Below are positions 6,393 to 54,364 of a stretch of 54,364 nucleotides of DNA, in pieces. Position 1 is the first letter of the stretch, and every line of letters starts with the position of its first letter. The notes beneath the pieces were generated by a model. The model was not told the origin of the DNA. It ran no database searches and saw nothing but the letters and a program-made list of their open reading frames with translations. Origin of the DNA: an uncultured Victivallaceae bacterium (GTDB taxonomy: Bacteria; Verrucomicrobiota; Lentisphaeria; Victivallales; Victivallaceae); assembly GCA_944389925.1 (NCBI GenBank), contig CALXOD010000058.1:1-54364 (forward strand), in the 5' to 3' direction. The translations under genes were made by a program, and so were the position numbers.

Positions 6393-6395
6393 GTT

Positions 6396-8795: not shown

Positions 8796-8835
8796 GGAGC
8801 GTTCTTTCCTGAATGAAGTGTATGTCGTAACGAAT

Positions 8836-8864
8836 AATATAACTCTTGAACCGGTTTTTTTAAA
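8836..8864 (-). promoter_or_regulatory. sigma70-like promoter of prmA
   Basis: Minus strand: TTTAAA (8859-8864), a 17-base spacer and TATATT (8836-8841), about 40 bases upstream of the prmA ATG. It stands back to back with the guaA promoter at 8874-8901. Confidence 0.5.
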
Positions 8865-8873
8865 GTCGGGGGA

Positions 8874-8901
8874 TTTAAAAAAGCGAAAAACGTGTTATAT
8901 T
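8874..8901 (+). promoter_or_regulatory. extended -10 promoter of the guaA operon
   Basis: TTTAAA (8874-8879), 16 bases, then TATATT (8896-8901) preceded by TGT, giving an extended -10 (TGn-TATATT). Predicted start is about 35 bases upstream of guaA. I see no purine-riboswitch fold in the short leader. Confidence 0.5.
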
Positions 8902-8943
8902 TTATACCAATATTATCCTGTTTCATAATCATTATGGTGGGCC

Positions 8944-10494: not shown

Positions 10495-10521
10495 CGGCCC
10501 GACCGGGCGGGAAAGGAAGCA

Positions 10522-13769: not shown

Positions 13770-15551
13770 TCAGAGTTTCAGCAACCGGGGCAGGTGGATG
13801 AGAAAAGCCGCCGGCAGAAGCGCCGTCGGCGGAATGAACAGCAGCAGTACCGCAGCAAAGAGGCTTCCTGCGAAAACAGGAATTTCCCGTGGCATCTCTC
13901 CTGCCGGAGCGGAGCCGGCACCGCGGTCGAAAAAGCGGATTGCAGCAAAAAGCAACAGGGCCGGCAGCCATGCCGCTCCCGGCAGATCCAGATGAAACTC
14001 TCCCCACAGGATGGGAATGACTGCGACTGCCAGCAGAGGCGCGGCATTTTTCTTTCTACCGTCTTCTCGGAGTCCTGCGGGCAACCGGGCTGCAGCGAGC
14101 GCGGGCAGGACGTTTCCGGCAAAACTGTCGGTTAACTGATAGGCAGCCAGGCCATGGGTTACGCCGGCGACGAGCCAGAGCCAGCTCATTCCGTTTTCGG
14201 CAAGAACGAAAAAGCCGGGCAGATGGCGATAGCGGCCGCAACTGATCCGGATCAGAGCGTAGACGCCGGCGAGCGGCAGGAGCGTCCATTGCCATGGCCA
14301 GGCGGAGATTTGGCGCCGGAGGCGGTTCAGAGACGATTCTTCTACCTGAATTGCCGGGGCTTCCGAAGCCAGACAATGCTCATACAGCACGGAAAAAATG
14401 CCCGGCGGTAGAAGTTCATATTCCGGCGGGCTTAATTCCCCGAGTCGTCGATCCAACAGGGGGAGATCTGCGCACAGGAGCTCCGGAGTATCCGTGGCCG
14501 CTAGATATTTTCCGTTTGTCCCCGGCAGCGGCAGACGGTAACGGCAGGGCGGTTCCGGCCCGTCAGCCGGAACGATCAGAACCCCGTCGGGGGCGAGCCG
14601 GTCAGCGTACAGCCGTCGCAGTTGCCGCGATTTCGCCTCCGGTACGGCATCGGGATAGTCGAGGATGAAAATCAGGTCATACCGTTCCTGAGCTGAGGGC
14701 GATGCCGGAGACTGCGGCAGAACAGTCAAAGGCAGAACACCTTCCCCCGTCCAGACGCCGGGAAGCGGCAGATCAAACTGCGCGTGAACGGAGGAGACGA
14801 AGGGGAACTGCTCCAGAAGCAGCGGGATGGCGGAAGGTACCGCACCGAGAAACAGCACTTTCAAACGGTCCCGGTTGGGTTGAAGCGCCGCAGGCAGCGC
14901 CGCAGGCAGATGGCGGTAAAAGGCTTCGGGAAATTCATACGTCTGTCCGTTGTTGCCGATTTGATAATGATGGGGCCGGTCCGGGAGAAGCGTTACCAGA
15001 TAGTCGTTGGCATTGCCGCGGAGAATGTTGCCGGGGAATGCCGCTGCGGCGAACAGGTTGAGGCTCAGCACTCCCGCCAGGATGACAGTTAATAGTTCCG
15101 GAAGCAGGCGGATTCCCCGAATGCTGTTCCGGAACAATACCAGGACAGCAGGTAGAGCCATGCCGGTGAATACCATGTTGATGACCGGGTCCGTGAGAAA
15201 ATGATTGCCTCCCAGAAATGCCGCCAGGACACATCCACCGAAAGCTGCGGCAAATATCCGCTTCCCGTTTTCCGGTGCGGCAGACTCCGGTAACGCGCTT
15301 AGCGCTCCCGCCGTCAGGGCCGCGGCGATCAGCCGGGCTTCCGGGAGCATATAGAGAATGAGCGGGATGCAGGCGAGTCTCCCTTTGTGGGGTTCCTTGG
15401 AGAAGCGGAACCGGACCAGCAGGGCGCCGGTTAATGCCGCCGCGGCGGCAAGCAGCAGCGCCGGCATTGTTTGCCAGACGGTTGCTCCCCGGGCCGCGCT
15501 CCAACCAGCGGTCCAGCCTGGCAGCAGAAAGAACAGGAACAGTCTGAACAA
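13770..15551 (-). CDS. polytopic membrane protein with degenerate spermidine-synthase-like domain
   Basis: A 593-residue protein: about six membrane segments (1-190), a soluble Rossmann-like domain (about 195-410: KVLFLGAVPSAIPLLLEQFP, YDLIFILDYPDA, LRRLYADRLAPDGVLIVPADG), then about six further membrane segments. This resembles membrane-fused spermidine-synthase-like proteins, but the glycine-rich GGGDG SAM motif is missing and becomes LGAVPSA, so it is probably not a polyamine synthase. Start is a TTG at 15551 preceded by GGGAG eight bases upstream; the first in-frame ATG would remove the first helix. It is monocistronic and faces yifB. Function is not recognised; transport or lipid processing would be guesses. 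Confidence 0.6.
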   Translation of the reverse strand: MFRLFLFFLLPGWTAGWSAARGATVWQTMPALLLAAAAALTGALLVRFRFSKEPHKGRLACIPLILYMLPEARLIAAALTAGALSALPESAAPENGKRIFAAAFGGCVLAAFLGGNHFLTDPVINMVFTGMALPAVLVLFRNSIRGIRLLPELLTVILAGVLSLNLFAAAAFPGNILRGNANDYLVTLLPDRPHHYQIGNNGQTYEFPEAFYRHLPAALPAALQPNRDRLKVLFLGAVPSAIPLLLEQFPFVSSVHAQFDLPLPGVWTGEGVLPLTVLPQSPASPSAQERYDLIFILDYPDAVPEAKSRQLRRLYADRLAPDGVLIVPADGPEPPCRYRLPLPGTNGKYLAATDTPELLCADLPLLDRRLGELSPPEYELLPPGIFSVLYEHCLASEAPAIQVEESSLNRLRRQISAWPWQWTLLPLAGVYALIRISCGRYRHLPGFFVLAENGMSWLWLVAGVTHGLAAYQLTDSFAGNVLPALAAARLPAGLREDGRKKNAAPLLAVAVIPILWGEFHLDLPGAAWLPALLLFAAIRFFDRGAGSAPAGEMPREIPVFAGSLFAAVLLLFIPPTALLPAAFLIHLPRLLKL

Positions 15552-22435: not shown

Positions 22436-23182
22436 ATGAAAAGAGTTTTTACATTGATTGAATTGCTGGTCGTGATTGCGATCATTGCCATTCTGGCGGC
22501 GATGTTGCTGCCGGCGCTCAATCAGGCCCGGGAAAAGGCGCGCACGATTCAATGCGTCAGCAACATCAAGCAGGTGGCGGCGATGATGCTGTTCTACAGC
22601 GGCAGCTATGATGATTATCTGCCGCCGAATGCGATCAATTCCTATTCCACTGGAAACTGGGTGAATCTGATGCGGACCGAGAAACTGTTGACCAGCGGTA
22701 TCCGAACCTTTCTCTGCCCTACTTCTTCTGTTGGCATTGAGCAGGAGTATCTGAATGAGATTATACAACTTTCCGGCAAGCATCTGGATAAAATCTCCTA
22801 TGGGTATAACTTCAAATATCTGGGGTCAGACCGGTATATGAACGATACTCCGGATCATTACTATTATACATCCTGCCGGATTTCTCAGATAAAACAGCCT
22901 TCTCGGACCGTTCTTCTGGGAGAAACAGTCTCTTTGAAGGCGAAATCGGACGGCAGTGACATGCCCGGCGGCATCTCTCTCTGGCCGAATGCCCAGACCG
23001 CAGCCTGGCGCAATGTTCTCTACGCTGCGCATGGAAGTTCTCTGAATGTGGCCAGGGTAGACGGTCACGTCGGGACACACCGTTTGTACAATCGACTGCA
23101 ACCCTATACCACTGCTCCGATTCTGGAGGATTGGCGTTGTACAGGGGCGCAGGCGGCACTGAATGTATGGGACCGTTTATGA
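22436..23182 (+). CDS. prepilin-type N-terminal helix protein, H-X9-DG family
   Basis: A 248-residue protein beginning [19 protein letters not shown], followed by [23 protein letters not shown], the type IV pilin-like helix. The C-terminal motif [12 protein letters not shown] fits H-X9-DG. The -1 residue before FTLIE is Val, not Gly. The middle has two Tyr-rich stretches ([13 protein letters not shown]). GGAGG stands five bases before ATG 22436. It lies 123 bases after the lyase and overlaps the BNR gene by four bases. Context mirrors the module at 2.9-6.4 kb. Function in surface display or secretion is inferred. Confidence 0.87.
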
Positions 23183-24618
23183 TGATGACCGAAATCAAAG
23201 GATGGGTCGGTGCCTGGATGTTTCTGGCACTGACGGGATACGCCGCGATTCTGCCGGTGGATAGTGAAAAGGCTGCTTTTGAGATACCTTCGGCAGGAAA
23301 GCCGGAAGAGTATACCGCCGCAACGGATGTGCCCTCGGGGTCGGCCATTGCATTTGACCGGAAAAACCGGCCGTATATGGTGAATGCGGTTGATCCGGAA
23401 TGTTACGGGTATATTTCCGTTCTGGATGAGGATGGGCGCTGGGAACGTCGTGATTTTACTGCGGCACTCAAAGCTGCCGGTTTCCCGGTGGAATCTCCTA
23501 CGCTGCGGACCGTACAAAACCGGGCTGTATTAGGTTTTGACCGTCAGGACCGGTTGTATGCGCTGGTGCCCACGCCGCGCAAAGTCAAAGACGGCGTAGA
23601 TATCAATGGAGATATGGCGTTATTGTATTCCACCGATTACGGAGAGCATTTTCAGGCATACCGGGTCGGGATCCGGCCTTATCAGGGGACCATGGAGAGT
23701 TCTTCTTCGGGGCGGATTCCGAATGGACCGCCGGCGGTATTTCGCGGTGTGCACCTGCAACGGCTTTCCGGGAAGGGGATTACTTACCCGGATGTGGGAG
23801 AACAGAGTCTTGATTTCTGTTCATTGAATCGGCTGGATGTGGTGTTGCCCGAGATAACGGATGAGGGGCTCCGGTTACCGCCTGCGGTCGTTGTAACGGA
23901 ACGGGCCAACGGCGTGACCAGCCATTCGGGAGGCGGTCATATTGCCGCACGAACCGATACGCGTCTGTTTGTCGCCTATGTGGCAGTGCCCGAGAATCCG
24001 GCTTGTGGAGGCAATCCCACCTATGTTGCGGAAGTGGATCTGGAACGACGGAAGGTCGCGGGACGGAAGCTGGTGGCCAATGCCACGCCGCTGGTTTCGG
24101 ACAGTCATGCCTGTCCGACATTGGCGCTGACTTCTACCGGAGAACTGGATCTGGTGACTGGGTCACATGGGTGGAGTCCGAAACATCCTGGTTTTCTGTT
24201 TGCCCGGAGCATACGCCCGGCCGAGCTTTCGGAGTGGACGGTACCGGAACGGCTGGGAGTGGGAGAATCCTATGTGGATATGGTAGTGGACAGTCGAGAC
24301 AACCTTTATATCGCCTACCGGGTCCATCCGCAACTGTGGGTACGCAAATACGACCGGGAATCCGGGAAATGGCTGCTGCCAGTACGATTACTGGAATACA
24401 CGCCGGCCCGGCGTGCCGACGGGACGTTGAGCTATACCGTTTTCTATCATCATTTGTTTATTGACCGCAGGGATAACTTGTACGTCAAGGCATTGTTTCA
24501 TGACTTCGATACGGGATTGAAGGGCCGTTTCCCGTTGATGTGGCTGGTCAGTTCCGACGGGGGCATTTCATGGCGGATTCCCGATACGGCGTGGATGCGG
24601 AATAATAGGATGCCATAA
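23179..24618 (+). CDS. BNR-repeat (six-bladed propeller-like) secreted protein, possible lyase
   Basis: A 479-residue protein starting with overlapping ATG codons at 23179-23187 and a hydrophobic segment ([15 protein letters not shown]) that could be a signal peptide. Several blade-like motifs pair an Asp turn with an aromatic strand ([58 protein letters not shown]). [13 protein letters not shown] and [25 protein letters not shown] resemble BNR_4-type proteins, a group that includes ulvan lyases of families PL24/PL25. The activity is therefore a candidate, not established. It is the last gene of the module and converges on tatC with a 20-base gap. Confidence 0.68.
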
Positions 24619-40550: not shown

Positions 40551-42845
40551 ATGAATTTTCTGCATGGTGCCGATTTTTATTGGTTGTTGCTTCTCATTCC
40601 CGGGGCGGTGATTCTTTTTGCCATGGCCGGGGCGCGACGGCGGCGGTTGCTGCGGCTGGTGCTTGGCGCGCGCGCGGAGGAGCCTGATGCGGTGGGGGTG
40701 TCACGCGGACGGCGGGTAATGCGTTTTGTCCTGCTGTTGCTGGCGGCGGTGTTGCTGCTGACGGCGGCGGCGCGCCCCTGGTGGGGTACGCGACCGGTGC
40801 CGTATTCGGCAACGGGACGGGATGTGTTGGTACTGTTTGATGTGTCCAAAAGCATGCTGGCGACCGACGTTGCCCCCTCGCGTCTGAAACATGCGCAATA
40901 TCTGCTGAAAGAGCTGGTGAATGCTAATTCTGGCGATCGTTTTGGATTGGTGGCGTTTGCCGGGACTTCTTTTCTGGAATGTCCGTTGACGACGGATCGA
41001 ACCAGTTTTATGCAATATGTGGACGAACTCAGCCCGGAAAGCGTTCCGATGGGAGGAACGAATATTGAACGGGCCTTGCGGACTGCGGAAGAGGCATTTC
41101 AGGCGGCAGAGGGAAATTTTCGTGCAATTCTGCTGATTACCGATGGGGATGAGCTCTCCGGAGAGAGCCGCCGGGCGGTGGAGGCGCTGCGGGCGAAACA
41201 TATTCCGCTTTTTATTCTCGGACTGGGGGATCCGGAAGTGCCCGCACTGGTGCCGGAACCGGACGGCAGCTTCAAGCGGGATGCCCAGGGAGAACTGGTC
41301 AAAACCAGATTGGCGGAAAACGCTTTGAAAGAATTGGCGCTGGCCACCGGCGGCGTGTATGTGCGCAGTACGGCACTGGATTCCGGACTGAGCGAAATAG
41401 AGCGACGTATCAAAGCGCTGGTGCCGGCTAATGTGGGCAGTGGAGTGCGCAGTGTACCGATCGAACGCTTTCCGTATTTTTTGATTGCGGCGGCGGTATT
41501 GCTGCTGGGATATTTCCTTTTGAACGACCGCCGAGCGGTGGCGGTGATGATCCTCCTGGGGCTGAGTATTTATCCGGCATGGGGTGAGCCATTGCCTCCA
41601 CGTGAAAAGCAGAAGACTGCAGAGGAGGCTCCGGCGAAACCGGAGGAAGACGGCGAAGTGGAAACAAACGACCCGGTTCAATTGTATAATCAGGCGTTGA
41701 TATGGCAACGGGAAGGTCGTGAAGAGGCATCCTCCCTGTACGAGAAAGCCATCCGGAAGGCAGGGGAAAATACTGCGGTGGGGGCCCGGAGTTTTTTCAA
41801 TCTTGGTGTGGGGCGTCATCGTGGCGCGCGGGAGTTGATCAGCAAGGCGCGGCAGACTCTGCAAGCCCAGCAGCTGGATGCTGCCTCCCGGGAGCTGGAG
41901 AATGCAAAACAGGAGTTGGAAGGAGCTTCAGAGCTTTACGCGCAGGCTTTAACTTTTCCTGACAGAGCGCAGAATGCGGTCAATCCTGGTTCCAATTTGC
42001 AGAAGTTGAACGAAGATCGGGAGATGGTGGATAACCTCCTCAAAAAGATTGAAGAGCTGAAAAAGCAACAACAGCAGGCGCAGCAGCAGACCCGTCAGGC
42101 AAAGAATCAGAACCAGCAGGACCAGCAACAACAAAATCAGCAAAATCAACAAAATCAGCAGAACCAGCAGGGTCAGCAGAATCAGCAACAACAAAATCAG
42201 CAAAATCAGCAGAATCAGCAGAACCAGCAGGACCAGCAGGGTCAGCAGAATCAGCAACAACAAAATCAGCAAGGTCAGCAGAGCCAGCAGGACCAGCAAC
42301 AACAAAATCAACAGAATCAGCCATCCACTGCGGAACAGATGGAACAGGCGCGCCAGGCAACGGAGGAACTGCAACGCCAGGCGGAAGATCTGCAGCAGAA
42401 ACAGTTGAGCGAAGCCGCGCAGCGGGCGGCCGAGGATATCCGAAAGGCGGAAGAGGCGAAGCGTCGGAATCGTCCGGAAGAGGCGGACCGGCATTTGCAG
42501 GAGGCGTTGAAGAACCTCGGTTCCGACTCGGATCAGGAGCGCCGGAACGATCAGCAGCAATCGGGCGAGCAGGATCGGCAGCAGGCCCAATCGGATCAGA
42601 GCGCCGATGAGCAGAAGCAGCAGGATCGTAGCCAGGAGGACGGTCAGGAGCAGGAAAAGCAAAACGAACCCCTTCCGGAACCCGGCAAGTCCGGCGGCGA
42701 GCCGCGCCGGGGACAGCCTGGAAAACTGGATAAGGAATCCGCGGAGAAGATGTTGGAAATCATGGCCGATCAGGAAAAAGACCTGCGCGAAGCAATCAAG
42801 CGCGGTTCCGGCGCCGGACGGATTCAGGTGGAAAAGGATTGGTGA
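40551..42845 (+). CDS. BatB-BatC fusion: VWA membrane protein with TPR region and Gln/Asn-rich tail
   Basis: A 764-residue envelope protein. Two N-terminal helices (11-25, 57-73) lead to a VWA domain (about 90-295) with MIDAS residues Asp97, Ser99 and Ser101 (DVSKSM), Thr170 (GGTN) and Asp198 (TDGD). Two membrane segments (308-324, 330-345) follow. Residues 375-475 look like tetratricopeptide repeats (VQLYNQALIWQREGREEASSLYEKA, ARSFFNLGV), as in BatC. Residues 505-592 are almost purely Gln/Asn (QQNQQNQQ), then a charged helix ends in EKMLEIMADQEKDLREAIK, a conserved BatC-like end. It precedes the BatD-BatE gene by five bases. Bat proteins affect aerotolerance or envelope stress in Bacteroides and Leptospira; the exact role is unclear. 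Confidence 0.85.
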   Translation: MNFLHGADFYWLLLLIPGAVILFAMAGARRRRLLRLVLGARAEEPDAVGVSRGRRVMRFVLLLLAAVLLLTAAARPWWGTRPVPYSATGRDVLVLFDVSKSMLATDVAPSRLKHAQYLLKELVNANSGDRFGLVAFAGTSFLECPLTTDRTSFMQYVDELSPESVPMGGTNIERALRTAEEAFQAAEGNFRAILLITDGDELSGESRRAVEALRAKHIPLFILGLGDPEVPALVPEPDGSFKRDAQGELVKTRLAENALKELALATGGVYVRSTALDSGLSEIERRIKALVPANVGSGVRSVPIERFPYFLIAAAVLLLGYFLLNDRRAVAVMILLGLSIYPAWGEPLPPREKQKTAEEAPAKPEEDGEVETNDPVQLYNQALIWQREGREEASSLYEKAIRKAGENTAVGARSFFNLGVGRHRGARELISKARQTLQAQQLDAASRELENAKQELEGASELYAQALTFPDRAQNAVNPGSNLQKLNEDREMVDNLLKKIEELKKQQQQAQQQTRQAKNQNQQDQQQQNQQNQQNQQNQQGQQNQQQQNQQNQQNQQNQQDQQGQQNQQQQNQQGQQSQQDQQQQNQQNQPSTAEQMEQARQATEELQRQAEDLQQKQLSEAAQRAAEDIRKAEEAKRRNRPEEADRHLQEALKNLGSDSDQERRNDQQQSGEQDRQQAQSDQSADEQKQQDRSQEDGQEQEKQNEPLPEPGKSGGEPRRGQPGKLDKESAEKMLEIMADQEKDLREAIKRGSGAGRIQVEKDW
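42063..42322. repeat. CAR/AAY-type tandem coding repeat (Gln/Asn tract)
   Basis: Low-complexity codons CAG, CAA, AAT and AAC repeat with a mixed 9- to 36-base period; longer units (CAGAATCAGCAACAACAAAA) recur at least twice. The tract is in frame and encodes about 87 Gln/Asn-rich residues. Its repeat structure makes copy-number change likely. Confidence 0.9.
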
Positions 42846-42850
42846 GCGTT

Positions 42851-45367
42851 ATGATGAGGAAACGATTTCTAGCGGCTGTTGCCGCAATCAGTTCGATGAT
42901 ATTAACTGCTGCGGATGTGGATGTGCAGTTGAGTGCGGACGCCGTTGCCGCGGGTGAGATCGTGGAGTTGCGCCTGACGTCGTCCGTCGGTGTGCCGCAG
43001 CTGACGGAATACCCGACGCTTGAAGGCGGCCGCTGGCTGCGGAACCGGACCAACCAGAGTCAATCCACACAGATCATCAATGGCCAGAGGAGTTCCCGGT
43101 ATACGGTCAGTTACGCCATTCTGGCGGAAAAGGAGGGGACGCTGACCATTCCATCGCTCAAGGTGATGATGGACGGGCGGACGGAGAATACCACGCCACT
43201 GAGTGTCCGGGTATTGGCCGCCGACGAAAGAGCTCTTGCCGCGAATCAGGAGGGCGGCGGAACGATACCGCTGCGGGAGGCGTTGTTCGGGCGGATCAGG
43301 ATTCCGGACAAGCGTACGACGTATTACCTGGGGGAAGAGGTGCCGGCGGAATTGCAGCTTTTTTTCCGTCAGGGAGTGCCGTTGCGGGGACTTTCCAATC
43401 CGGAGCCGACCATGCCGCATGTGGTGTTGTCCGCAGAAAATGGGGGCTGGCCGGAAAATGAGCCGCCCCGGCAGACGATTGTCGATGGCAAGCGCTTTTA
43501 TGTGGTCAGCCGGCCATTTCGTTTTCGTTCATTGGCGGCGGGCGTGGTGCGTCCGTCTGCATCCGGAGTGGCGGTGGTGGCGGAGCAACGCCGATCCATG
43601 ATGGATGACGATCCGTTCGGCGCATTTTTCAGTATCATGGACCGGGGGGCGACCCGTCAGTATCCGGTAGCGTATGAGTGCGACCGGGAGATTACCTTCC
43701 GGGCGCTGCCTCCGCCGCCTGATGGCAGTGTGTCGTTGGGCCTGGTGGGGCGATGGCAGGTGGATTTTTCGCTGGACGCTCCGGAAAAGATCAAGGCCGG
43801 TGAGGTGGTTTCCTTGTATGCCCGGATTACGGGGCAGGGTACTCTGGAAATGTTGACCGCGCCCAAACTGGAAATTCCCGGATTCCGGGTGTATCCGCCG
43901 GAGGTGAAACCGTTGCGCGGCGGCGGGCGGGCGATCGTCTGGACGATGATTCCGTTGCGTTCCGGGACGGTGGAGCTGAAGACGGAGCTGGCGTATTTCA
44001 ATACGGAGAGCGGCAAGTATGACGTGGCGTCTTTTGCCCGCCCCCTGACGGTTTTACCTTCGGACCGTCCGCTGGATTCGGTGGTGTCGGCTCAGCAGGA
44101 CACAGAGGAGACTGCGGCTACTGCTCCAGCGATGCCGGAATTGCCACAGCAGTCCGGATTGCTTTATGTCAAGAGGCTGGATGAAGGCGGCAGTGGACGG
44201 ATTTTGAGTGGAAGTTTCTGGGGCTGGTTGTTGCTGCTGTTGATTGGTGGACCGGTTTTCTGGGGGGTGACGGAAGGAATCGGACGGCATCGTCGCCGGG
44301 TTTGCGGGGATGAGCAGCATCGCCGCCGTTCCTCTGCCCGGCGTATGCGTAGAGTGGTTTTGAAACAACTTGGCAAAGCACGGACTCCGGCAGAACTGAG
44401 TGAGACGGTGCATTCCGCCGTAGTGCCGATGCTCAATGACTATTTTGGTTTCCCACCGGGATTGACAGCAATGGAGCTGGCTGACCGGGTGGAGGATGCT
44501 GAACTGGCAGAAGTATTGCGGAGTTTGTCTGACGGGGCCTATGCGCCAGGGGCGGAAACATCCGGAGAACTTTGCCGGGAGCGGTTACAGAAGGTTTTAA
44601 AACGCATTATGATATGGTTGCTGCTGCTGTGGGGAGGGTGGGTCTGCGTTCCGGTTTCAGCCTCCGATGCGTTGGCGGCTGATCCGGCACAGGCGTTCCG
44701 GCGTGGCATGGAAGCATATGACGCTGGAGATTTTGAACAGGCGGCGAAGGAATACCGGAGCGCCTGGGATCCGGAGCATCCGAATCCGGCATTGCTGTAT
44801 AATCTTGGATGCGTTGCTTTCATGCAGCAGGATTATCCGCTGGCGACTTTGTTTTTCGAATCGTCCCGGAGGCTTGATCCGACGGATTCCGCCGCGTTGG
44901 AGAATTTGAATCTGAGCCGCCGCAAACTGGGATTGCCGGAGGTCGGTCGAGTGACTTCTCCGACAGAGCTGCTGACTTTTGCCCGCGATCAGTTCCGGCC
45001 GGAATGGTGGTTGCTGCTGGGGGCGGGAGCATGGTTTGGTGTGTTCGTCGTATTGGCGTTTCGACGGACATTGGGGGTGAATGCCAGCAGGATTACAGCA
45101 GGTGTGCTGTTCGGGGTAATGCTGTTGTGCACGGTCGCGTTCATTTCGCAGTGGCATGGCCCTTATCATAAGAGCCGGGCGGTGGTGATGCGGGGCGGGG
45201 CTCCGTTGCATTCGCTGCCTACGGCTTCCGGACGTCTGGAGGGAACGGTCCCTGCCGGTCATGAGGTGCAGGTGCTGGAAGAGCGCAAGGACTACACGCT
45301 GATCCGTTATGGCAAACAGGAAGGCTGGACACCCGCGACGGCAGTTCGGCGCATTCTTCTGCACTAA
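42851..45367 (+). CDS. BatD-BatE fusion: oxygen-tolerance protein with TPR and SH3 domains
   Basis: An 838-residue protein. The signal peptide (MMRKRFLAAVAAISSMILTA) leads to the BatD beta-rich exported region (22-440), then a membrane helix (455-473) and a cytoplasmic segment. A second signal-like helix (586-605, IMIWLLLLWGGWVCVPVSA) marks the junction. After it come TPR helices (613-695: ALLYNLGCVAFMQQDYPLATLFFESSRRLDP), two helices (719-768) and a bacterial SH3 domain (775-835). The last three parts are the plan of BatE in Bacteroidetes. So two genes normally separate are one here. Start ATG 42851 (42854 possible) overlaps no stop and lies five bases after the upstream gene. A terminator follows. 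Confidence 0.85.
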   Translation: MMRKRFLAAVAAISSMILTAADVDVQLSADAVAAGEIVELRLTSSVGVPQLTEYPTLEGGRWLRNRTNQSQSTQIINGQRSSRYTVSYAILAEKEGTLTIPSLKVMMDGRTENTTPLSVRVLAADERALAANQEGGGTIPLREALFGRIRIPDKRTTYYLGEEVPAELQLFFRQGVPLRGLSNPEPTMPHVVLSAENGGWPENEPPRQTIVDGKRFYVVSRPFRFRSLAAGVVRPSASGVAVVAEQRRSMMDDDPFGAFFSIMDRGATRQYPVAYECDREITFRALPPPPDGSVSLGLVGRWQVDFSLDAPEKIKAGEVVSLYARITGQGTLEMLTAPKLEIPGFRVYPPEVKPLRGGGRAIVWTMIPLRSGTVELKTELAYFNTESGKYDVASFARPLTVLPSDRPLDSVVSAQQDTEETAATAPAMPELPQQSGLLYVKRLDEGGSGRILSGSFWGWLLLLLIGGPVFWGVTEGIGRHRRRVCGDEQHRRRSSARRMRRVVLKQLGKARTPAELSETVHSAVVPMLNDYFGFPPGLTAMELADRVEDAELAEVLRSLSDGAYAPGAETSGELCRERLQKVLKRIMIWLLLLWGGWVCVPVSASDALAADPAQAFRRGMEAYDAGDFEQAAKEYRSAWDPEHPNPALLYNLGCVAFMQQDYPLATLFFESSRRLDPTDSAALENLNLSRRKLGLPEVGRVTSPTELLTFARDQFRPEWWLLLGAGAWFGVFVVLAFRRTLGVNASRITAGVLFGVMLLCTVAFISQWHGPYHKSRAVVMRGGAPLHSLPTASGRLEGTVPAGHEVQVLEERKDYTLIRYGKQEGWTPATAVRRILLH

Positions 45368-45378
45368 TCACCCATGTT

Positions 45379-45419
45379 AAGCGGGAACGGGCGGAGGATC
45401 AGCGTTTTCCCGCTTTTTT
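45379..45419 (+). terminator. terminator of the bat operon, overlapping the end of the facing gene
   Basis: AAGCGGGAA (45379-45387) pairs with TTCCCGCTT (45407-45415) around a 19-base loop, then a T-run to 45419. Its right arm lies inside the last codons of the convergent gene that ends at 45399. Confidence 0.7.
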
Positions 45420-48185
45420 CAATGCGGCCGAAAGAGGATTGTCTTCATCATGAGAGGGGGGAGATGAAGAGGCCGGTTGTACGGGGTGCTTTGCTGATTG
45501 TCTGGCGGACGGATCGGCATCGAATCGGGAAGGCACCGGCATGACGGCGGCATTGATATCGTGTGCCGCCGCCGGAATTTTTGAAATATTTTGCCGGTGG
45601 CGGCGGATGGCCGGAAGTTGAACCCGCTGTGTCCAGTGGAAACGTCGTTCCGCCACTTCCAGCAGCAGTGTGGCGATAGCGAGCAGCGACAGGAGCGGAG
45701 CAAGCGGGAAATCCTGCGTTTTCCGCGGCAACGCTTGCCATAAACCATCCGGTACCAATCGTTCCTGTCCACCCGTGGCAGCGGCAAGCTGAAAGAATTC
45801 TTCCGCACGAACTTCCATGGCAACGGGGCGGAATTCCGGCGAATTGGGCAAGGCCGCCGGCGCCAGCGGAATCGGACGGTGCCCGGGGAGATTCACCGTG
45901 GAGAGCGAGACGCCAGTGCGCTGGAGCGGCAATTCCAGCACCAGACGGTCCGGAGAATGATATTCCATCAGGTCTTGCCGCTGTTCCGCCGGACCGTTTT
46001 CGGGCAACAGAACGGTGGTGATCTGGGGCGGCGTGTCGAAGGGATCCCGTTCTCGTTCCGGATCAAGGAAGAGTTCGATCCGATGGGCACCACCTGAGAG
46101 GGTCTGCGTGACCAGAAAATCCTCGCCGGTTTGTTCCGGCGTGGCCATCCAAGCGGCCAGGGCGCCGAGGAGATGCCCGGCGGCGGGGTCCTGTGCGAAT
46201 TTTCCGGTGTACTCTCCGTCTACTTCCGCAGTTAGGACGCTGACCCGACCAAGACCGGCCTGACCGACTGCGGCCACCGGGGCGCGGAACTCATCCTCAC
46301 TGACTAGAATGACATCGCTTCCCGCGCGAGCGAAACAAACGTTATACCCGCCGAATTCAGTGCTGTCACCGAATTTTTCCGCCGAAGGCAGGAGCTGTGC
46401 GGCGGGTGTGTAACGCATTCGGGTGGGCTGGTCGACGAAGGTGCTCCGGGCCATGACGAACGTATCTTCCGTGAAAATGCGCGGCAGTTCATCCGGGCGG
46501 TCGGAAAAATAGCAGATACCGTTTCCCAGTTGGGCGACTTCCTGCAGAAATGCGGCGTCGCAGTCGCTCTCTTTGCCGAGCGCGACCACACTGACGGTAA
46601 TGCCCGCCGCGGATGTTCGCTTCAGCAGAGAACGGAATTCTCCGGGTTCCTCCGCATCCTGTGCATCGGCGAAAAGAATCAGGTGGCGCTTATCGGCATT
46701 GGACCGGAGCAGTTCCGCAGTGGCCCGATGGAGCGCGGTATATGTGAAAATCCCGCCGCCCATAGATTCGATGGCCAGAATCCGCTGTTCCGCGTTGCGG
46801 GGATCGCCCACCTTGCCCCACGGGACGACGACGTGCGCACTGCTGTCGACCGCGATCAACCCGAATTCGTCCGAGGGGGCCAGCAGGCGCAGAACCTCGA
46901 CGGCGGCAAGGTTGGCCATGGACATTTTGGTGATACCGCCGATGTTGGCGCTCATGCTGCCGGAGCGGTCCAGCGCGATCATGACGGCACTGCGGGTTTT
47001 ATGCAGTTCCTGGCGTTGTTCCAGAGAAACCGGCAGCAAGTCGGCAATCGGAGTCCGGTAGTAACCGCCGACGGCGAAGGAACGGCGGCCGCCGGTCATC
47101 ATCAGTCCGATGGTTCCGTTTTTCACCAGTTCGGCGATTCTGGTGAGGCCGTCCGGACCGATGCGGGAGGCGGGGACGTTTTCAAGAATGATGCCGGAAT
47201 ATCCGGAGAGGCGTTCTACTGTGACTTCCCCGGGGGAGGGGGAATGGGCAACCACCGGCAAACCCGAGGCGCGTAGCAGACGTTCGAAATGTCCGGTAGT
47301 TGAGTCCGTCAGAAGCAGGAGCGGTTTGCGTCCGGCGATTTCGATCAGGCGGCGGGCCCGGTTGTTTTCGGAGAAATCGTCCCGGCCTTCGAATTGCAGT
47401 TCAAGCGTATATTCGACTACGCCGGGAACGGCGGTACGGTCGCGCCAGGTGAAGACGTTGATTCCCGGTCGGAGCGACAGCGGCACCTCCTGTCCGCTGG
47501 AACCTGAACGTCGGATTCGGCAGACTCCCCGGCGGATGTCCGGCGAATAAACGCGCAATTGCAATGGATAATATTCTCCCGGGGCGGCCCGAAAGGGGGC
47601 TTGAAGGTCCAGAATGCCGGGATCATTGCCGGAAACAGCTTCCGGTCTGCGCCAGTCGACCGGGATCCCGCGGGCGGTGGCAGCGGCGAGGAGCGGCGCG
47701 GGATGTTCGAGATTCCAGCGGCCGTCGGTCAGGAGCACGATCCGGGCAGGGGTATTTTCCGGCAGCAGACGGAGGGCGGACCGGAGTGCCGCGGCGGGGT
47801 TGGTGGTATCGGGATCGATGTCCGCTTTCGGTGTGGCAGCATCACCTCCGGGGGAGTCGGGATGCCGGGTGACCACGGCGTTTCGTCCGAAGCGGATGAC
47901 CGCCAGGCGGGAATCCGATGGCCGGGTTTTCTCCAATTCCCGGAGAAATGTGGAGGCGGAAGAGGCGGAACCGGCGGGCATGGAGCGGCTGTCGTCGATC
48001 AGCACCGCCAGTGTGCCTGCCCGGTCTTCATGCCGGATCAGCGGTCCGGAAAGGGCTGCGATCAGCAGTACATAAAGCAGGACGCGCAGGATAAACAGCC
48101 ATTTCCCCGCAGGAGGACGATAGAAAAACAGGACCGCCAGCGGTAGAGTCAGCAGCCATGCGGCAGGCCAGGTAAAATGAATCAT
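45399..48185 (-). CDS. large membrane protein with two VWA domains and a glutamine-amidotransferase-like segment
   Basis: A 928-residue protein. Two helices at the start (about 6-22, 28-47) precede a first VWA domain with MIDAS Asp64, Ser66, Ser68 (DDSRSM). Residues 285-375 look like an inactive class I glutamine amidotransferase (LLLTDSTTGHF, YSGIILENVPAS, GTIGLMMTGGRRSF), without a catalytic Cys. A second VWA domain starts at Asp406/Ser408/Ser410 (DRSGSM) and includes GIFTYTAL (Thr) and FADAQD. One C-terminal helix (about 835-855) is followed by a basic, disordered tail. Similar proteins occur with Bat clusters in the PVC group. Start ATG 48185 overlaps the upstream stop by four bases. Confidence 0.85.
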   Translation of the reverse strand: MIHFTWPAAWLLTLPLAVLFFYRPPAGKWLFILRVLLYVLLIAALSGPLIRHEDRAGTLAVLIDDSRSMPAGSASSASTFLRELEKTRPSDSRLAVIRFGRNAVVTRHPDSPGGDAATPKADIDPDTTNPAAALRSALRLLPENTPARIVLLTDGRWNLEHPAPLLAAATARGIPVDWRRPEAVSGNDPGILDLQAPFRAAPGEYYPLQLRVYSPDIRRGVCRIRRSGSSGQEVPLSLRPGINVFTWRDRTAVPGVVEYTLELQFEGRDDFSENNRARRLIEIAGRKPLLLLTDSTTGHFERLLRASGLPVVAHSPSPGEVTVERLSGYSGIILENVPASRIGPDGLTRIAELVKNGTIGLMMTGGRRSFAVGGYYRTPIADLLPVSLEQRQELHKTRSAVMIALDRSGSMSANIGGITKMSMANLAAVEVLRLLAPSDEFGLIAVDSSAHVVVPWGKVGDPRNAEQRILAIESMGGGIFTYTALHRATAELLRSNADKRHLILFADAQDAEEPGEFRSLLKRTSAAGITVSVVALGKESDCDAAFLQEVAQLGNGICYFSDRPDELPRIFTEDTFVMARSTFVDQPTRMRYTPAAQLLPSAEKFGDSTEFGGYNVCFARAGSDVILVSEDEFRAPVAAVGQAGLGRVSVLTAEVDGEYTGKFAQDPAAGHLLGALAAWMATPEQTGEDFLVTQTLSGGAHRIELFLDPERERDPFDTPPQITTVLLPENGPAEQRQDLMEYHSPDRLVLELPLQRTGVSLSTVNLPGHRPIPLAPAALPNSPEFRPVAMEVRAEEFFQLAAATGGQERLVPDGLWQALPRKTQDFPLAPLLSLLAIATLLLEVAERRFHWTQRVQLPAIRRHRQNISKIPAAAHDINAAVMPVPSRFDADPSARQSAKHPVQPASSSPPSHDEDNPLSAALKKAGKR

Positions 48186-49930
48186 CGTGCACCCTCCGGC
48201 TTTTTCCCGATGAGAATTTGATGCAGCGCCAGCACCAGGATGGCGGCGAGGAGCAACAGGGGCGACCAGCTGTGGACGGTATGGCGGCCGCGGTTTGCCG
48301 GTGGCATACCATCCCGGAGGAAGGGGGCGCAGCGACGCAGGTCGGATTCCGCGGGATTGCCGGGGGAGACGGCGATTTCCTCCTGGAAATTTTCCGCTTC
48401 AATCCGGCTGATACCGGGGGGCGGAGCGAGGAAGGTCGATCGTCCGCTCCGGGCCGGCAGGAGTTGTTCTGTCCCGTCGGGGAGGAGCAGGCGCAGGGAA
48501 TCGGTTTTGGAGGAAGGCAGGCGGAGCCGGACCAGATCGCCGCTGCGCAGATTACGGGATTCTGCTCCGGGACGTTCGGCGCGAAGCAGCGCGGCAAGGT
48601 TCCAGAACAGGGCCGGCCACAACGGGCGGCGGGCGAGATTGGAGGATTCCGGCTGGAGATTCAAATGAAAATCCCATTTTCCATCCAGCCGTCGGAGCGC
48701 GGTCAGGACCGGATCAGCGCCGCGGCTGATCAGCGTTTCGCCGGGAAGCCGTATATCCGGAACGGCCGCCCAGTGGAGTTCATCCGGCGACAGCCCCCGG
48801 GTCAGAGGATGGTCCGGGGAAAGAATGATCGGTTCATCGGTCAGCGTGGGACGGGACCGCCCTGGAACGGGCTGATGCCAGATCAGCCGGTGTGCGTCGG
48901 AGGGCTGGCCGGGGGGGAGCACTTCCAGTTCCGCCGTCAATGCCTGTCGGAATCCGGTCGCGGCATTCAGAACTGCTTCAAGGTCTTGACGGGCGGTATC
49001 GGAGAGGCCGGATTGAATACGAACCAGAATCGGCGTCTCATCTTCCGGCAGGAGAATGCGTTCATTGTCGAAATCCAGTACGTCCATTTCACTGGAGAGT
49101 CGGAGTTGCAGACGGCTTGCTGTTTGTTCCGGCGAGAGACGGAAGACGACCTTGCGGCGTTCTCCGGGGGCGAGCATCAGGGGATGTTCCGCGTTTCCCG
49201 GCGTCAGAATCAGGCGGGCCGGCACGGGGAGGGGGGAGCAGTTCACCACCTCCGCCAGCAGTCGACCATCTCCTTGGCGGGCATTGACGATGGCGAGATT
49301 CGGTCGGGATTGTCCGGCGGAGATCCAGCCGATTTCTTCAACGTTTTGGAGGTTTTCCGGTGGAGGCGTATCGGTTACCACGAGAATTTCCGCTTCGGGT
49401 ACGGTGCGGCGGACCAGAGCAAGCGCTGCGGTGAGATCGGCGGTATCCTCTGTCGCGGTCCAGGCGCGTTCGAAATCAAAACGGTTCCGGTCGTCCGCCA
49501 GCAGCCGCGGTGTGCGTCCGGCGGCAAACCAGAAAATGCGGCGTCCGGGCAGTTCCTCCAGACGGCGGCGCAGCTCCGGCAGCGCCAGTGTGCGGAACGT
49601 TTCCCCATTACCGGCGGTGGCGCGCATGGAGAAGGAGTTGTCGAGGATTACCGCCAGTGGCGGATATTCCTCCCGGGTCGTGAAGAACGGTCCGGCTGCG
49701 GCCGCCGCCAGCAGTGCCAGTGCCAGCGCTTCCAGATAGAATTCCAGCGGAAAGCGGCGGAAATGCCACCGGGCGCCGCTGCGCGGCGGCACTTCCGGGC
49801 GATCCCAGAGAAAGAGTGTTGCCGTCCGCTGCCGCCGGGCGTGGCGCTGGAAAAGATATAATAGGACCAGCAACAGCAGCGCCGTCAGGGCGAAAAGGTT
49901 CCAGGAATTGGTCCAGCCGGTGAGTGTCAT
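48182..49930 (-). CDS. BatA-like VWA membrane protein (aerotolerance N-terminal domain)
   Basis: A 582-residue protein. Two N-terminal helices (12-27, 65-82) flank a basic segment RHARRQRTATLFLWDRPEVPP, as in the Bat aerotolerance N-terminal domain. A VWA domain follows with MIDAS Asp97/Ser99/Ser101 (DNSFSM) and ILVVTDTPPP. Beta-rich and linker regions lead to a final helix (HSWSPLLLLAAILVLALHQI). ATG 49930 (ATGA overlap with DUF58 stop) is chosen over a long upstream open frame. It is in a strict, overlapping operon with DUF58 and the double-VWA gene. Confidence 0.85.
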   Translation of the reverse strand: MTLTGWTNSWNLFALTALLLLVLLYLFQRHARRQRTATLFLWDRPEVPPRSGARWHFRRFPLEFYLEALALALLAAAAAGPFFTTREEYPPLAVILDNSFSMRATAGNGETFRTLALPELRRRLEELPGRRIFWFAAGRTPRLLADDRNRFDFERAWTATEDTADLTAALALVRRTVPEAEILVVTDTPPPENLQNVEEIGWISAGQSRPNLAIVNARQGDGRLLAEVVNCSPLPVPARLILTPGNAEHPLMLAPGERRKVVFRLSPEQTASRLQLRLSSEMDVLDFDNERILLPEDETPILVRIQSGLSDTARQDLEAVLNAATGFRQALTAELEVLPPGQPSDAHRLIWHQPVPGRSRPTLTDEPIILSPDHPLTRGLSPDELHWAAVPDIRLPGETLISRGADPVLTALRRLDGKWDFHLNLQPESSNLARRPLWPALFWNLAALLRAERPGAESRNLRSGDLVRLRLPSSKTDSLRLLLPDGTEQLLPARSGRSTFLAPPPGISRIEAENFQEEIAVSPGNPAESDLRRCAPFLRDGMPPANRGRHTVHSWSPLLLLAAILVLALHQILIGKKPEGAR

Positions 49931-50781
49931 TGCAGCACCCCCGCCTGAAAGAGCCGGGCAAGGTCCCAGTCCGGTATCAGTTCTCCCGCCTGAAAACACA
50001 GCAGCAGCGCACCATGGGCAGCAGCAGCGCGTCGCCACGCTTCCTGATGGCGCGCGGCGCGTTCCCGGAAGCGGTGCCGCATGGCATCGTCGATGGGAAG
50101 CTCCCGGACTTCGCCGGTCTCCGCGTCTTCCAGCATAACGTAATCGCCCGGGACGGGTTCCAGTTCGTCATCGGCCAGAATCTGAATCAGTACCGTCTGC
50201 TTTGCCCCGGCGGAGAATCCGCCGAGAAAAATTTGCGGATCTTCCGGCCAGAGCAGGTCGCTGATCAAAATCCGCAATCCCCGCCGCTGGAGTGTCCCGC
50301 CGTATCGGGCCAGACCGTCGCCCGGGTTGGCTGTCGCGTCGAATGCTGTAGCGAGCCAGTCCGGCGGCGATTCCGGATGCGGTTCTTTGCGCCAGACGTC
50401 GGCGGCATGGAGCATTGCGAGGGAAAATCCCGCATTGAGCGCCGCCCGGGCCAGCAGCGCGGCCAGACCGAATGCCGCCGCGCTTTTTTCCGGCGTGACC
50501 GCCATGGAGCGGGAATGATCCAGCAGCAGATCGCATCGAGGATCGACTTCTTCGGAAAATTCCTTGATCATCAGCAGTTCCCGGCGTCCGAAAACATTCC
50601 AGTCCAACCGCCGCAGATCATCGCCGGGGCGGTATTCGCGGTATTCGGAAAATTCCAGTGCATTCCCCGCCCGGCGCCCGAGGCGACGTCCGTTGAAACC
50701 GATGGTCCGGGGACCGGCCAGACGGGTGTCGGCGGCCCGGGCAAGAACGGTTTGCAGGGTGCGCTTGAAGAGATCATTCAT
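49927..50781 (-). CDS. DUF58-family protein
   Basis: A 284-residue cytoplasmic protein. FSEYREYRPGDDLRRLDWNVFGRRELLMIKEF (about 44-75, in two blocks) is the DUF58 signature. A VWA-like domain follows with MIDAS Asp88/Ser90/Ser92 (DHSRSM). DUF58 proteins usually partner with MoxR AAA+ ATPases and Bat VWA proteins; the biochemical role is not known. It overlaps the upstream membrane gene by eight bases and the downstream VWA gene by four. Confidence 0.92.
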   Translation of the reverse strand: MNDLFKRTLQTVLARAADTRLAGPRTIGFNGRRLGRRAGNALEFSEYREYRPGDDLRRLDWNVFGRRELLMIKEFSEEVDPRCDLLLDHSRSMAVTPEKSAAAFGLAALLARAALNAGFSLAMLHAADVWRKEPHPESPPDWLATAFDATANPGDGLARYGGTLQRRGLRILISDLLWPEDPQIFLGGFSAGAKQTVLIQILADDELEPVPGDYVMLEDAETGEVRELPIDDAMRHRFRERAARHQEAWRRAAAAHGALLLCFQAGELIPDWDLARLFQAGVLQ

Positions 50782-52045
50782 GCTGATTGTCCTTCCGCGT
50801 CGGAGACCCGGTGCCGGGATTCATGGAGAAAGAAGACAATAGCGAGATCACTCCCAGAACGATCCACAGCCAGTAAGGCACTCCGACGGCGATTGTCAGG
50901 TCGTCCAGATGAGGCAGCGTGATCTTCAGCAGCAGCAGGAGCATCACACCGACCACCAGCAGGAGGCCGAGCATGAACTGAAAGTTTTTTTCTTCCTGCA
51001 TCCAACGGCCAGTGCGCGTATTAATCCGGCACCAAAACAGACAGGTCAGCGCCGCGGCAAATTCCCAGAGCACCAGCGTTGCGGCAAAATGCAGGTTGAT
51101 GGATTGCAGAATCAGCCAGGTCGCAACGATGACGGCCAGTGTGGCGAGCAGTCGGCTGTCCGCTCCGGACAGCCGTTGCCGCAATCCCGGCGGCACCGGG
51201 CACGCCGGCAGCTTCGCGGCATGGCGACTCAGTCCGGAAATGCCTGCGGCGGCGGCGAAGAGGCACAGGCTTAACGGGAGAAATTTTTCGCCCACCCAGG
51301 ACCGGGAAATGAGTGCGGCCATCAGCAGCATGAGCAGCAAAATCAGATATCCTGGAAAGAAATGCCGGTTCCACGGCGTGCGGCGCAGGTTTTCAACCAG
51401 CTCCAATCCGGTATACGTAGTGGCCAGAAGCAGCATTCCCACGGTTGCCGCCGTCGGTGGAAGATAATGCTCCGGATGATGCATTTCAGAAAAAAACATT
51501 TGGAGGGAAACATTCAGCATCAGCAGGATCCCCGCGGCCGATTCCAGCGGTCGCCGCAGATTGAGAAGAAAGACGAACAACAGCGCCGCCCCCGGGAGAG
51601 CGATCCAGAAAAGCAGCGGAGTCAGCCAGAGGTTGCCGCGCAGTTGGGCAACCAGTACGAACCAGCTGGGGAGGGTGATCAGCAGCATCGGCCAGAAGGC
51701 GTCGGCGGCGCTGTACAGAAGTCCCTGGATCGCCTGTCGCGGTTCGATCGGTGCGAAATCCAGCAGGTGCTGCCAGGTCGGAGGAGAGTTTCCCTCTGAT
51801 CTTCCGGCAAAACAGGAGAGGGTCCCTCCCAGACCGATGAATACAACCGTAATCAGCAGAAAAAGCATGACTTGCAGAACAAATTCTTCTAACCTTGTTT
51901 CGCGCCCGATCCAGAGATACAGGAGCTGGATTCCCACCAGCAGGACCGGCAGAAAAATACGCAGACGCTGGTGTCGCATACTGCACTTAAAATAAAAATA
52001 ATAGGGATTCAGCCGATCCGGAAGTTCCGTAGTATCCCGCATCAT
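50774..52045 (-). CDS. polytopic membrane protein, probable ABC-2-type exporter subunit
   Basis: A 423-residue protein with about ten predicted membrane helices (28-45, 57-76, 115-135, 150-165, 172-190, 195-212, 228-245, 255-270, 310-330, 365-400). No binding motif is seen and the sequence identity is unclear, but its position between an ABC permease and DUF58, with a four-base overlap upstream, argues it is a second permease-like subunit. A role as an integral partner of the exporter is inferred from context only. Confidence 0.62.
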   Translation of the reverse strand: MMRDTTELPDRLNPYYFYFKCSMRHQRLRIFLPVLLVGIQLLYLWIGRETRLEEFVLQVMLFLLITVVFIGLGGTLSCFAGRSEGNSPPTWQHLLDFAPIEPRQAIQGLLYSAADAFWPMLLITLPSWFVLVAQLRGNLWLTPLLFWIALPGAALLFVFLLNLRRPLESAAGILLMLNVSLQMFFSEMHHPEHYLPPTAATVGMLLLATTYTGLELVENLRRTPWNRHFFPGYLILLLMLLMAALISRSWVGEKFLPLSLCLFAAAAGISGLSRHAAKLPACPVPPGLRQRLSGADSRLLATLAVIVATWLILQSINLHFAATLVLWEFAAALTCLFWCRINTRTGRWMQEEKNFQFMLGLLLVVGVMLLLLLKITLPHLDDLTIAVGVPYWLWIVLGVISLLSSFSMNPGTGSPTRKDNQHE

Positions 52046-53490
52046 TCCTCCTTGTCCGCCGCCGGGCGCCGATGTTCGCGGAAGGCGCGGAGCACCTGCG
52101 GCACCAGCGCCAGCGCTCCGGGCACGGCGAAGAGATACCCGCTCAGGATGGCCATATTCAGCATCTGCGGGGGCAGACTCATTGTGGATTTCGTGGTCAG
52201 GAAGGAGGTCAGAAACCAGGGGGACGTGATCAGACCGGAAAACATCTTCGGTTGATTCAACGAGTCAAAACAGCAGAAGATCGGCAGGCCCCCCAGTATG
52301 ATGAAGACGATCAGTCCCCACTGGATGCTCGACAATTTCCCGACGAAACGGTGCAGCAGCAGGGCGCATTCCGCGTAGAAGAGCATATAGGCGCCGATCG
52401 TTCCGGTCAGGGCGCAGACGAAGATCGTTCGATCCGTCGGATGGCGGCTCTGCAGCAGCACCAGCCAGATCGTGGTGAGCCCCAGCACGAGCCAGGTGAG
52501 CGCCAGACCGCCGTAACAGCCGCTGGAAAAGAGGAAATGCAGCCATCGGCCCGCCCGGCCGGTCGGACAACGCAGCAGGACCCGCGGCCCGGGTTTCTCT
52601 CGCTCCAGCAGTGTGATCACCGCCAGCGCCGTTACCAGCAGGAATAAGGCGAGGGCTGCGCTCCCGCAGAGCGAGGTCGCACTCAGTTTCCCATCCAGGT
52701 GCTGGGCGAAAATGAAGGCCAGCACGATTCCCGCGGCCATACAGAACAAATAGATCCGGACCGGCAGAATCCGGTTCGAATCCGGCGGCGAAATCACCGC
52801 CAGCGTCAACACATAGAATAAACCGAACAGCAAGAGATAGCCGAACAGACCGATGCTCAGAAATGCCCACCCGTTATGCGGAGAAATGCGGAAAAATATC
52901 AGCGACCCCATCAGCACATTCTGAATGCAGGTGAGCCCGATGATCACCAGTGCGATACCGCCCATCCAGCGTTTTCCGGAGCTGGCGACCAGCAGGGCGA
53001 ATTGCGTCAGCACGATCAGCGGCACCGCCAGTTGAAGCACCATCATGCCCACGAGCGGCAGCGAGATCCCGCGCAGAAAATAGGCGATCGTCATAAACGG
53101 CAGACAGAGCGCGTAGATGAAGGCCAGCAGGACGATTGTCGCGGCGATTTTTCCCCGCAGAATCTGATGCGGCGTCAAGACCGAGAGCAGCGAATAATCC
53201 AGTTCCCGGTTGGTCCGTTCCGTCAGGTAGCGGTTGTAACTGCTGCCGACACAGAGGATGAGGCCGGACAGGGCCAGAATGAACATCTGAACCCCCATCA
53301 TGGCGCCGCCGGTAGGGGAATCGGTGTCTTGTTCCAGTGCGCTTTGCTGAAAAAACAGCAGCACGATCAGCTGCGCTGCCAGCAAAGTCGCCATGGTCAG
53401 GAGCATGCGCTTGTTATGAAAGGACTGCCGCAATTCTTTGAGCAGTACCGGATTGATGTGATCATCCAGATAACGGGAGATGGCTTTCAT
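52042..53490 (-). CDS. ABC-2-type transporter permease
   Basis: A 482-residue membrane protein with about twelve helices. The N-terminus NPVLLKELRQSFHNKRML followed by a hydrophobic helix, and SYNRYLTERTNRELDYSLLSVLTPHQILRGKI, are typical of ABC-2 permeases (GldF/NatB-like). It overlaps the ABC ATPase gene by one base (TAATG) and the next membrane gene by four. The substrate is unknown; the Bat context suggests an envelope or redox function. Confidence 0.82.
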   Translation of the reverse strand: MKAISRYLDDHINPVLLKELRQSFHNKRMLLTMATLLAAQLIVLLFFQQSALEQDTDSPTGGAMMGVQMFILALSGLILCVGSSYNRYLTERTNRELDYSLLSVLTPHQILRGKIAATIVLLAFIYALCLPFMTIAYFLRGISLPLVGMMVLQLAVPLIVLTQFALLVASSGKRWMGGIALVIIGLTCIQNVLMGSLIFFRISPHNGWAFLSIGLFGYLLLFGLFYVLTLAVISPPDSNRILPVRIYLFCMAAGIVLAFIFAQHLDGKLSATSLCGSAALALFLLVTALAVITLLEREKPGPRVLLRCPTGRAGRWLHFLFSSGCYGGLALTWLVLGLTTIWLVLLQSRHPTDRTIFVCALTGTIGAYMLFYAECALLLHRFVGKLSSIQWGLIVFIILGGLPIFCCFDSLNQPKMFSGLITSPWFLTSFLTTKSTMSLPPQMLNMAILSGYLFAVPGALALVPQVLRAFREHRRPAADKEE

Positions 53491-54364
53491 TACTGCACCT
53501 TTCCTGTGGTGATTTTCATGAAGAGTTCCTCCAGTCCGAGCTCGTTGCGACGGTAGCCGGTGACCACGATGCCTGCGGCGAAGAGGGTGCCGACCACCTG
53601 GGAGGCTTCGGCGTCGCCGCCGGAGATTTCCGCATGGATTTCCCGTTCTCCATGGATTTCCGCCGCAGTGACCAGCGGATGTTCCAGCAGTTTGAGTCGC
53701 GCTGCTTCCGGTGTTCCTGCAACTTCGATCACAATATGGCTGTGGTGGGGAACCTCGGGGGCTGTCGAAGTCGCATCGGCGGCCGGAGCGCCTTCCGCCG
53801 CCTGCAGCAGCTGTTCCAGAGTGCCGGCGGAGAGGAGTTTGCCTTTTTCGATGATCACCGCGCCGTCACAGATGTCCTGAAGTTCGGAGAGAATATGGCT
53901 GCTCAGCAGAATTGCCTTGCCCTGTCCAGCCAGAATTTTCAACAGGGAACGCAATTCCAGCCGGGCGCGCGGGTCCAGTCCCGCCGCCGGTTCGTCCATG
54001 ACCAGCACCTGTGGATTGTGCACCAGAGAACGGGCGAGGCTGACCCGCTGTTTCATACCCTTGGAGAGCGCGGCAAGGTATTTGTAACGAATTTCGCCGA
54101 GCTGGGTGAATTCCTCGATATCCTGCAGTACCTTCCGACGCAGCGCTCCCCGCAGACCAAAGGCGCGGGCGAAGAAATCCAGATATTCCCAGACCTGGAT
54201 GTCCCGGTAATCCGGCAGGGAATCGGGCATATAGCCGACTACGCGCCGGATTTTTTCCGGATAAAGCACGGCGGAGACGCCGTCGTAAAGTACGTCGCCG
54301 GAGTCGGGCCGGTCGAGCGTGGCCATGATTTTTATGGTCGTGGTCTTGCCTGCGCCGTTCGGCC
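53490..54364 (-). CDS. ABC transporter ATP-binding protein (5' end outside the window)
   Basis: The visible 291 residues start inside Walker A: PNGAGKTTTIKIM is encoded at 54324-54362 just before the window edge, so the gene begins beyond 54364. Further motifs are the Q-loop region (YMPDSLPDY), the signature LSKGMKQRVSLAR, Walker B VLVMDEP with the D-loop GLDPRARLELR, and the H-switch LLSSHIL. A C-terminal extension of about 100 residues (HIVIEVAGTPEAARLKLLEHPL) is a CcmA/NatA-type regulatory domain. The reading frame continues upstream of the ATG at 54326, which is inside the P-loop and is not the start. It heads the overlapping run of exporter and VWA genes. Confidence 0.93.
   Translation of the reverse strand, partial: PNGAGKTTTIKIMATLDRPDSGDVLYDGVSAVLYPEKIRRVVGYMPDSLPDYRDIQVWEYLDFFARAFGLRGALRRKVLQDIEEFTQLGEIRYKYLAALSKGMKQRVSLARSLVHNPQVLVMDEPAAGLDPRARLELRSLLKILAGQGKAILLSSHILSELQDICDGAVIIEKGKLLSAGTLEQLLQAAEGAPAADATSTAPEVPHHSHIVIEVAGTPEAARLKLLEHPLVTAAEIHGEREIHAEISGGDAEASQVVGTLFAAGIVVTGYRRNELGLEELFMKITTGKVQ

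Follow-up and report, generated by a model that had tools for sequence, protein, structure and literature searches.

The right-hand end of a contig from an uncultured Victivallaceae bacterium raises the question of whether two convergent gene runs, both encoding VWA-domain proteins, form one envelope machine or belong to separate systems that happen to meet. The window analysed here is the whole of contig C58 (54,364 nt), part of a 2.80-Mb assembly of 69 contigs. Its + strand carries a Bat arm and its - strand an ABC arm (Table 1). The initial annotation counted five VWA-like domains, read the two arms as a single envelope machine with several metal-dependent adhesion domains, and suggested that the expected gene of the MoxR ATPase may lie just past position 54,364. 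The genes that it named are all present as open, mostly overlapping frames with the expected domains, and because the gene runs are conserved across relatives, their arrangement is far beyond chance. Elsewhere in the window, open frames of 882, 593 and 495 aa (2907-5555, 13770-15551 and 23131-24618) have no Pfam match at E<=1e-5.

Table 1. Features of the two convergent arms and of the adjoining contig C24 (window coordinates unless C24 is given)
Feature	Position	Strand	Remarks
BatB-BatC fusion, 764 aa	40551..42845	+	First Bat-arm gene
BatD-BatE fusion	42851..45367	+	Second Bat-arm gene
Hairpin, then T-runs on both strands	45373..45416	both	Spans the gap between the convergent stops
Double-VWA/GATase1-like protein, 928 aa	45399..48185	-	Last ABC-arm gene
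BatA-like protein, 582 aa	48182..49930	-	N-terminal BatA-type double TM, degenerate VWA, C-terminal TM
DUF58 protein, 284 aa	49927..50781	-	Cytoplasmic, VWA-like (DHSRSM ... SD); Pfam DUF58 E=3.3e-25
Polytopic membrane protein, about 10 TMs	50774..52045	-	Putative second ABC permease; hydropathy
ABC-2-type permease, about 12 TMs	52042..53490	-	Conserved NPxLxKExRQ start; alignment, hydropathy
ABC ATPase	53490..54362, 5' end cut by contig end	-	Pfam ABC_tran E=4.5e-19
MoxR	C24 10644-11801		AAA_3 E=5.5e-59; same operon as the ABC arm via 80-nt overlap

In this lineage the bat operon is split in two, and the + strand arm represents its second half. The BatB-C protein comprises two N-terminal TMs, a periplasmic VWA, one TM and a TPR-like tail with a Gln/Asn-rich linker. 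It matches Pfam VWA_2 (E=1.5e-19), the PDB entries 3ibs, annotated as 'BatB' (E=2.8e-35), and 4jdu (E=4.8e-34), and the NCBIfam model of Leptospira BatB at E=5e-32, a score under that model's cutoff. Its VWA is membrane-anchored with an intact MIDAS (DVSKS / GGT / TDG), as in BatB of bat operons, and Leptospira biflexa likewise has BatB fused to BatC (PMC3557215). The long Gln/Asn-rich near-repeats of the BatC part (window 42000-42400) give rise to long spurious antisense frames. Beside BatB, the BatD-E protein joins a BatD domain (Pfam BatD E=5e-18) to a BatE-type part, in the order BatD domain, TM, TPR, TMs and C-terminal SH3, with further matches to TPR and SH3_3; the BatD-TPR-SH3 fusion is known in Borrelia (PMC5700661), and a relative of BatD-E was found in 52 of 61 close genomes. 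The first half of the operon, moxR-DUF58-DUF4381-batA, sits on contig C51, away from batB-C. Other genomes show the two halves in several arrangements: an unbroken run moxR-DUF58-DUF4381-batA-batBC-batDE in G023 (L083), halves head to head and facing away in G030 and G018 (L084, L089), and halves far apart in G020 and G012 (L077/L087, L082/L088).

The - strand arm supplies genes four to nine of a nine-gene operon in the order ORF522-MoxR-ORF574-ATPase-permease-permease-DUF58-BatA-like-doubleVWA, whose first three genes lie on contig C24 of the same genome. The right end of C58 falls within the ABC ATPase gene. The last 80 nt of C24 are the reverse complement of the window end with 2 mismatches, an overlap on which, and not on reads, the join of the two contigs rests; the ATPase reading frame runs on across it and resumes at C24 13525. 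C24 contributes ORF522, MoxR, ORF574 and the 5' end of the ATPase. Extension to the right has located the expected moxR, about 1.9 kb beyond the overlap. Two further moxR genes had been candidates for this missing upstream gene and were rejected, that on C51 as the bat copy and that on C30 because its neighbours are unrelated. The C30 gene (L008 6772-7704), the third MoxR of this genome, is an orphan on a long branch with no VWA or DUF58 neighbour.

The best NCBIfam model for the ATPase is GldA (E=3.4e-53), with 181 bits against an equivalog cutoff of 402.6, scored on the 5'-truncated protein. In the family of the NPxLxKExRQ permease, two members reach ABC2_membrane_3 at a weak E=8e-4. The putative second permease is fast-evolving (19-83% identity to its positional equivalents) and has no Pfam match. 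From hydropathy and charge, ORF574 is predicted to carry a signal sequence and two TMs flanked on either side by large periplasmic parts. It also matches the beta-galactosidase middle domain weakly (E=0.013), the same kind of clue by which archaeal DUF4350 proteins were linked to GldG (PMC5898192). Neither ORF574 nor ORF522 matches a Pfam family, and a Pfam scan of 8 members of the accessory protein gave no match to GldG or DUF4350. The GldA match and this weak shared clue, the only likeness of ORF574 to GldG/DUF4350, might suggest that the ABC arm is a GldAFG-type accessory of gliding or type IX secretion, an assignment that we regard as very improbable given the shortfall from the GldA cutoff and the missing Pfam GldG and DUF4350 matches.

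The remaining ABC-arm genes encode the VWA proteins. The BatA-like protein reaches Pfam BatA at E=6.7e-5 (23.7 bits, cutoff 25.9). The double-VWA protein has TMs near its N terminus, VWA1 at about residues 60-160, a GATase-like segment at about 285-390, VWA2 at 401-571, GATase-like-looking sequence again at about 613-690 and a C-terminal TM at 826-844; Pfam VWA_2 matches it twice (best E=7e-26). All five VWA-like units counted initially are there: the double-VWA protein contributes two, and BatB, DUF58 and the BatA-like protein one each, that of the BatA-like protein (DNSFSM ... TD) being called from motifs only, as the Pfam VWA models do not reach it. A clear full MIDAS is seen in BatB only. 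VWA2 has DRSGSM and the conserved Asp, but all 24 close relatives have Ile in place of the MIDAS Thr; the Thr is retained in four relatives from a shorter, ABC-free gene set described below (L056-L059). Nor is a Thr conserved at this position in the VWAs of the BatA-like and DUF58 proteins, and the VWA partners of the ABC arm lack the full DxSxS, T, D set, so that speaking of several metal-dependent adhesion domains was too strong.

The GATase-like segment matches PF07090 at E=1.2e-4 (22.1 bits, under the curated cutoff of 27), and its residues 315-387 give remote profile matches to the GATase1-like structures 3rht and 2gk3; further PDB profile matches of the protein are 8s05 and 5a8j. Among 24 aligned close relatives, no Cys of the segment is conserved in more than 60%, and the conserved His 451 and 501 fall within VWA2. 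The segment, which lacks a conserved counterpart of the catalytic Cys of class I glutamine amidotransferases, is probably inactive, as initially proposed. Structure models built on shallow alignments were too poor for a fold search (pLDDT 42 for the GATase/VWA2 part, 35 for the BatA-like protein). From positive-inside charges, the VWAs of BatB, the BatA-like protein and the double-VWA protein are predicted to face the periplasm; a periplasmic VWA has been measured for Borrelia BB0173 (PMC5700661).

The ABC-arm operon, which is unnamed, is widely conserved in the phylum. Other genera and families of the same order share its gene arrangement (L043-L051, L053), and so do families farther away in the phylum (L061, L062, L064, L067, L069, L071, L073, L075), ORF522 not being detected in every relative's operon. 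Across 289 genomes, the double-VWA protein (bit score >=480) occurs in 64 and ORF574 (E<=1e-3) in 75, both together in 58 (Fisher p=3e-38), the former without the latter in 6 and the reverse in 17. All 34 pairs that share a contig are at most 15 kb apart; in the remaining 24 genomes the two genes lie on different contigs, in some cases owing to contig breaks. The operon is split in mid-contig in G220 and G120, and its parts lie on different contigs in G010; co-transcription of all parts is therefore not required. At L067 (G252, 4877-12239) ORF574 and the permease are each present twice in the operon, the copies lying side by side.

An ABC-free shorter set, moxR-DUF58-BatA-like-doubleVWA, is found in G020, G028 and G012 (L057-L059). 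There the set is preceded by a membrane ORF that is conserved and about 500 aa long (L057 2-6570, L058 12747-19899, L059 12763-19900); the frame further upstream measures 1,688-1,852 aa or more and extends past the end of the sequence stretch. The viral contigs searched contained no relatives.

The Bat arm is distributed differently. BatD-E (E<=1e-20) occurs in 80 of the 289 genomes and coincides with the double-VWA protein in 22, with 58 and 42 genomes having one of them alone, which corresponds to independent occurrence (p=0.21). The two arms lie tail to tail in the genus of the window only, in all three of its genomes: the window itself, G002 (L042) and G001 (contig C249). In G020, whose genome is in five contigs, they share a contig at a distance of 2.2 Mb, and elsewhere they are on different contigs. 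In trees of MoxR and of DUF58, ABC-operon copies and bat-operon copies form separate, well-supported clades, so each arm owns its ATPase and its DUF58. Within the window, the convergent stop codons are 31 nt apart. The hairpin between them (RNA fold -17.6 / -16.7 kcal/mol), whose z of only -1.7 / -1.3 is not outstanding, is suggestive of a possible terminator shared by both arms.

Two observations favour the single-machine reading with its metal-dependent adhesion domains: this tail-to-tail contact in three of three genomes of the genus, and the domain types common to both arms. Against it stand the independent occurrence and wide separation of the arms elsewhere, the separate clades of their MoxR and DUF58 proteins, the possible terminator between them and the MIDAS motifs, which are not intact in most of the VWAs. 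The initial annotation had itself named arms lying far apart in relatives as a finding that would tell against it, and this is what the genomes show. The distribution and the clades together argue against a single machine, and the comparison within the phylum leaves that part of the initial annotation very unlikely. We consider it likely instead that the window end carries the tails of two independent MoxR/VWA systems, the ABC operon being serviced by its own MoxR in the manner proposed below.

Judged from its sequences, the ABC operon would most likely encode an ABC exporter, or a remodeller of the envelope, that is of GldAFG-like type and is serviced by MoxR. Its inner-membrane ABC complex would consist of the GldA-like ATPase and both permeases, with ORF574 as a putative periplasmic flavodoxin/GATase-like accessory subunit of the GldG/DUF4350 kind. 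A cytoplasmic MoxR ring, with DUF58 as adaptor, may assemble or remodel this membrane complex, including its BatA-like and double-VWA subunits, while the periplasmic VWA and GATase-like domains would act as protein-binding modules rather than as enzymes. Since MoxR and DUF58 are expected in the cytoplasm and the VWAs in the periplasm, the two sides would have to be linked through membrane parts. The net output may be regulated export or envelope remodelling.

A different division of labour is suggested by the NorQ-NorD precedent (PMC9976466). By analogy, the VWA proteins of the operon might bring the MoxR ring to a dedicated membrane client for metal insertion or maturation; the ABC genes would then be this client and not the engine. 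That moxR, VWA and ABC genes travel together agrees with this reading. Against it, the MIDAS Thr is missing from VWA2 in all 24 close relatives, and the T534V substitution in NorD keeps NorQ binding and abolishes client maturation (PMC9976466); in addition, NorQD is a soluble cytoplasmic pair, unlike the predicted periplasmic VWAs here, and the operon contains no metalloenzyme. We hold this alternative to be rather unlikely. In its most specific form, our own proposal is also tentative: a previously undescribed envelope exporter or remodeller, conserved across the phylum, whose MoxR ring would service a GldAFG-like ABC complex by way of VWA modules in the periplasm. One of these modules would have lost canonical metal binding and would be interspersed with a GATase-like fold that is catalytically inactive.

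MoxR/VWA systems are widespread and few have known clients. In this operon the ABC complex is a candidate client of MoxR, a link supported by the co-occurrence of its genes. Its separation from the Bat arm guards against a wrong transfer of Bat phenotypes such as aerotolerance and envelope integrity, and it is the ABC-MoxR-VWA operon alone that deserves attention. Its novelty is provisional: no description of the nine-gene operon was found in the open literature, subscription papers being mostly outside the search.

Among known systems, the + strand arm supplies batB-C and batD-E of the bat operon of Bacteroides, Leptospira and Borrelia (moxR-DUF58-batA-batB-batC-batD-batE), from which it differs by being split. 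The ABC operon was also compared with the MoxR-vWA-beta-propeller ternary conflict system, whose features it does not show: for its MoxR, bpMoxR is not the best model (47 bits, AAA_3 reaching 198), and no propeller domain was reported among the scanned neighbours. The operon resembles GldA-GldF-GldG in its GldA-like ATPase, its membrane permeases and a protein that is putatively a periplasmic accessory; its scores are far under the GldA cutoff, however, and MoxR, DUF58 and VWA proteins belong to the operon here. As in NorQ-NorD and other MoxR AAA+/VWA chaperone pairs, a MoxR ring is encoded beside VWA partners, which in this case are membrane-anchored and include a VWA2 that has lost the MIDAS Thr. 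Another comparison is the predicted secretion or membrane-remodelling complex of archaea in which arCOG01314, a DUF4350/GldG-like flavodoxin protein, is associated with a MoxR ATPase and a VWA protein (PMC5898192). Both systems combine in one operon MoxR, a membrane-anchored protein resembling flavodoxin or the beta-galactosidase middle domain, and VWA proteins, the resemblance of ORF574 to DUF4350 being a weak clue that falls short of established homology. The bacterial operon differs by its additional ABC ATPase, two permeases, DUF58 and BatA-like proteins, and by a GATase-like domain that is also found within a VWA protein.
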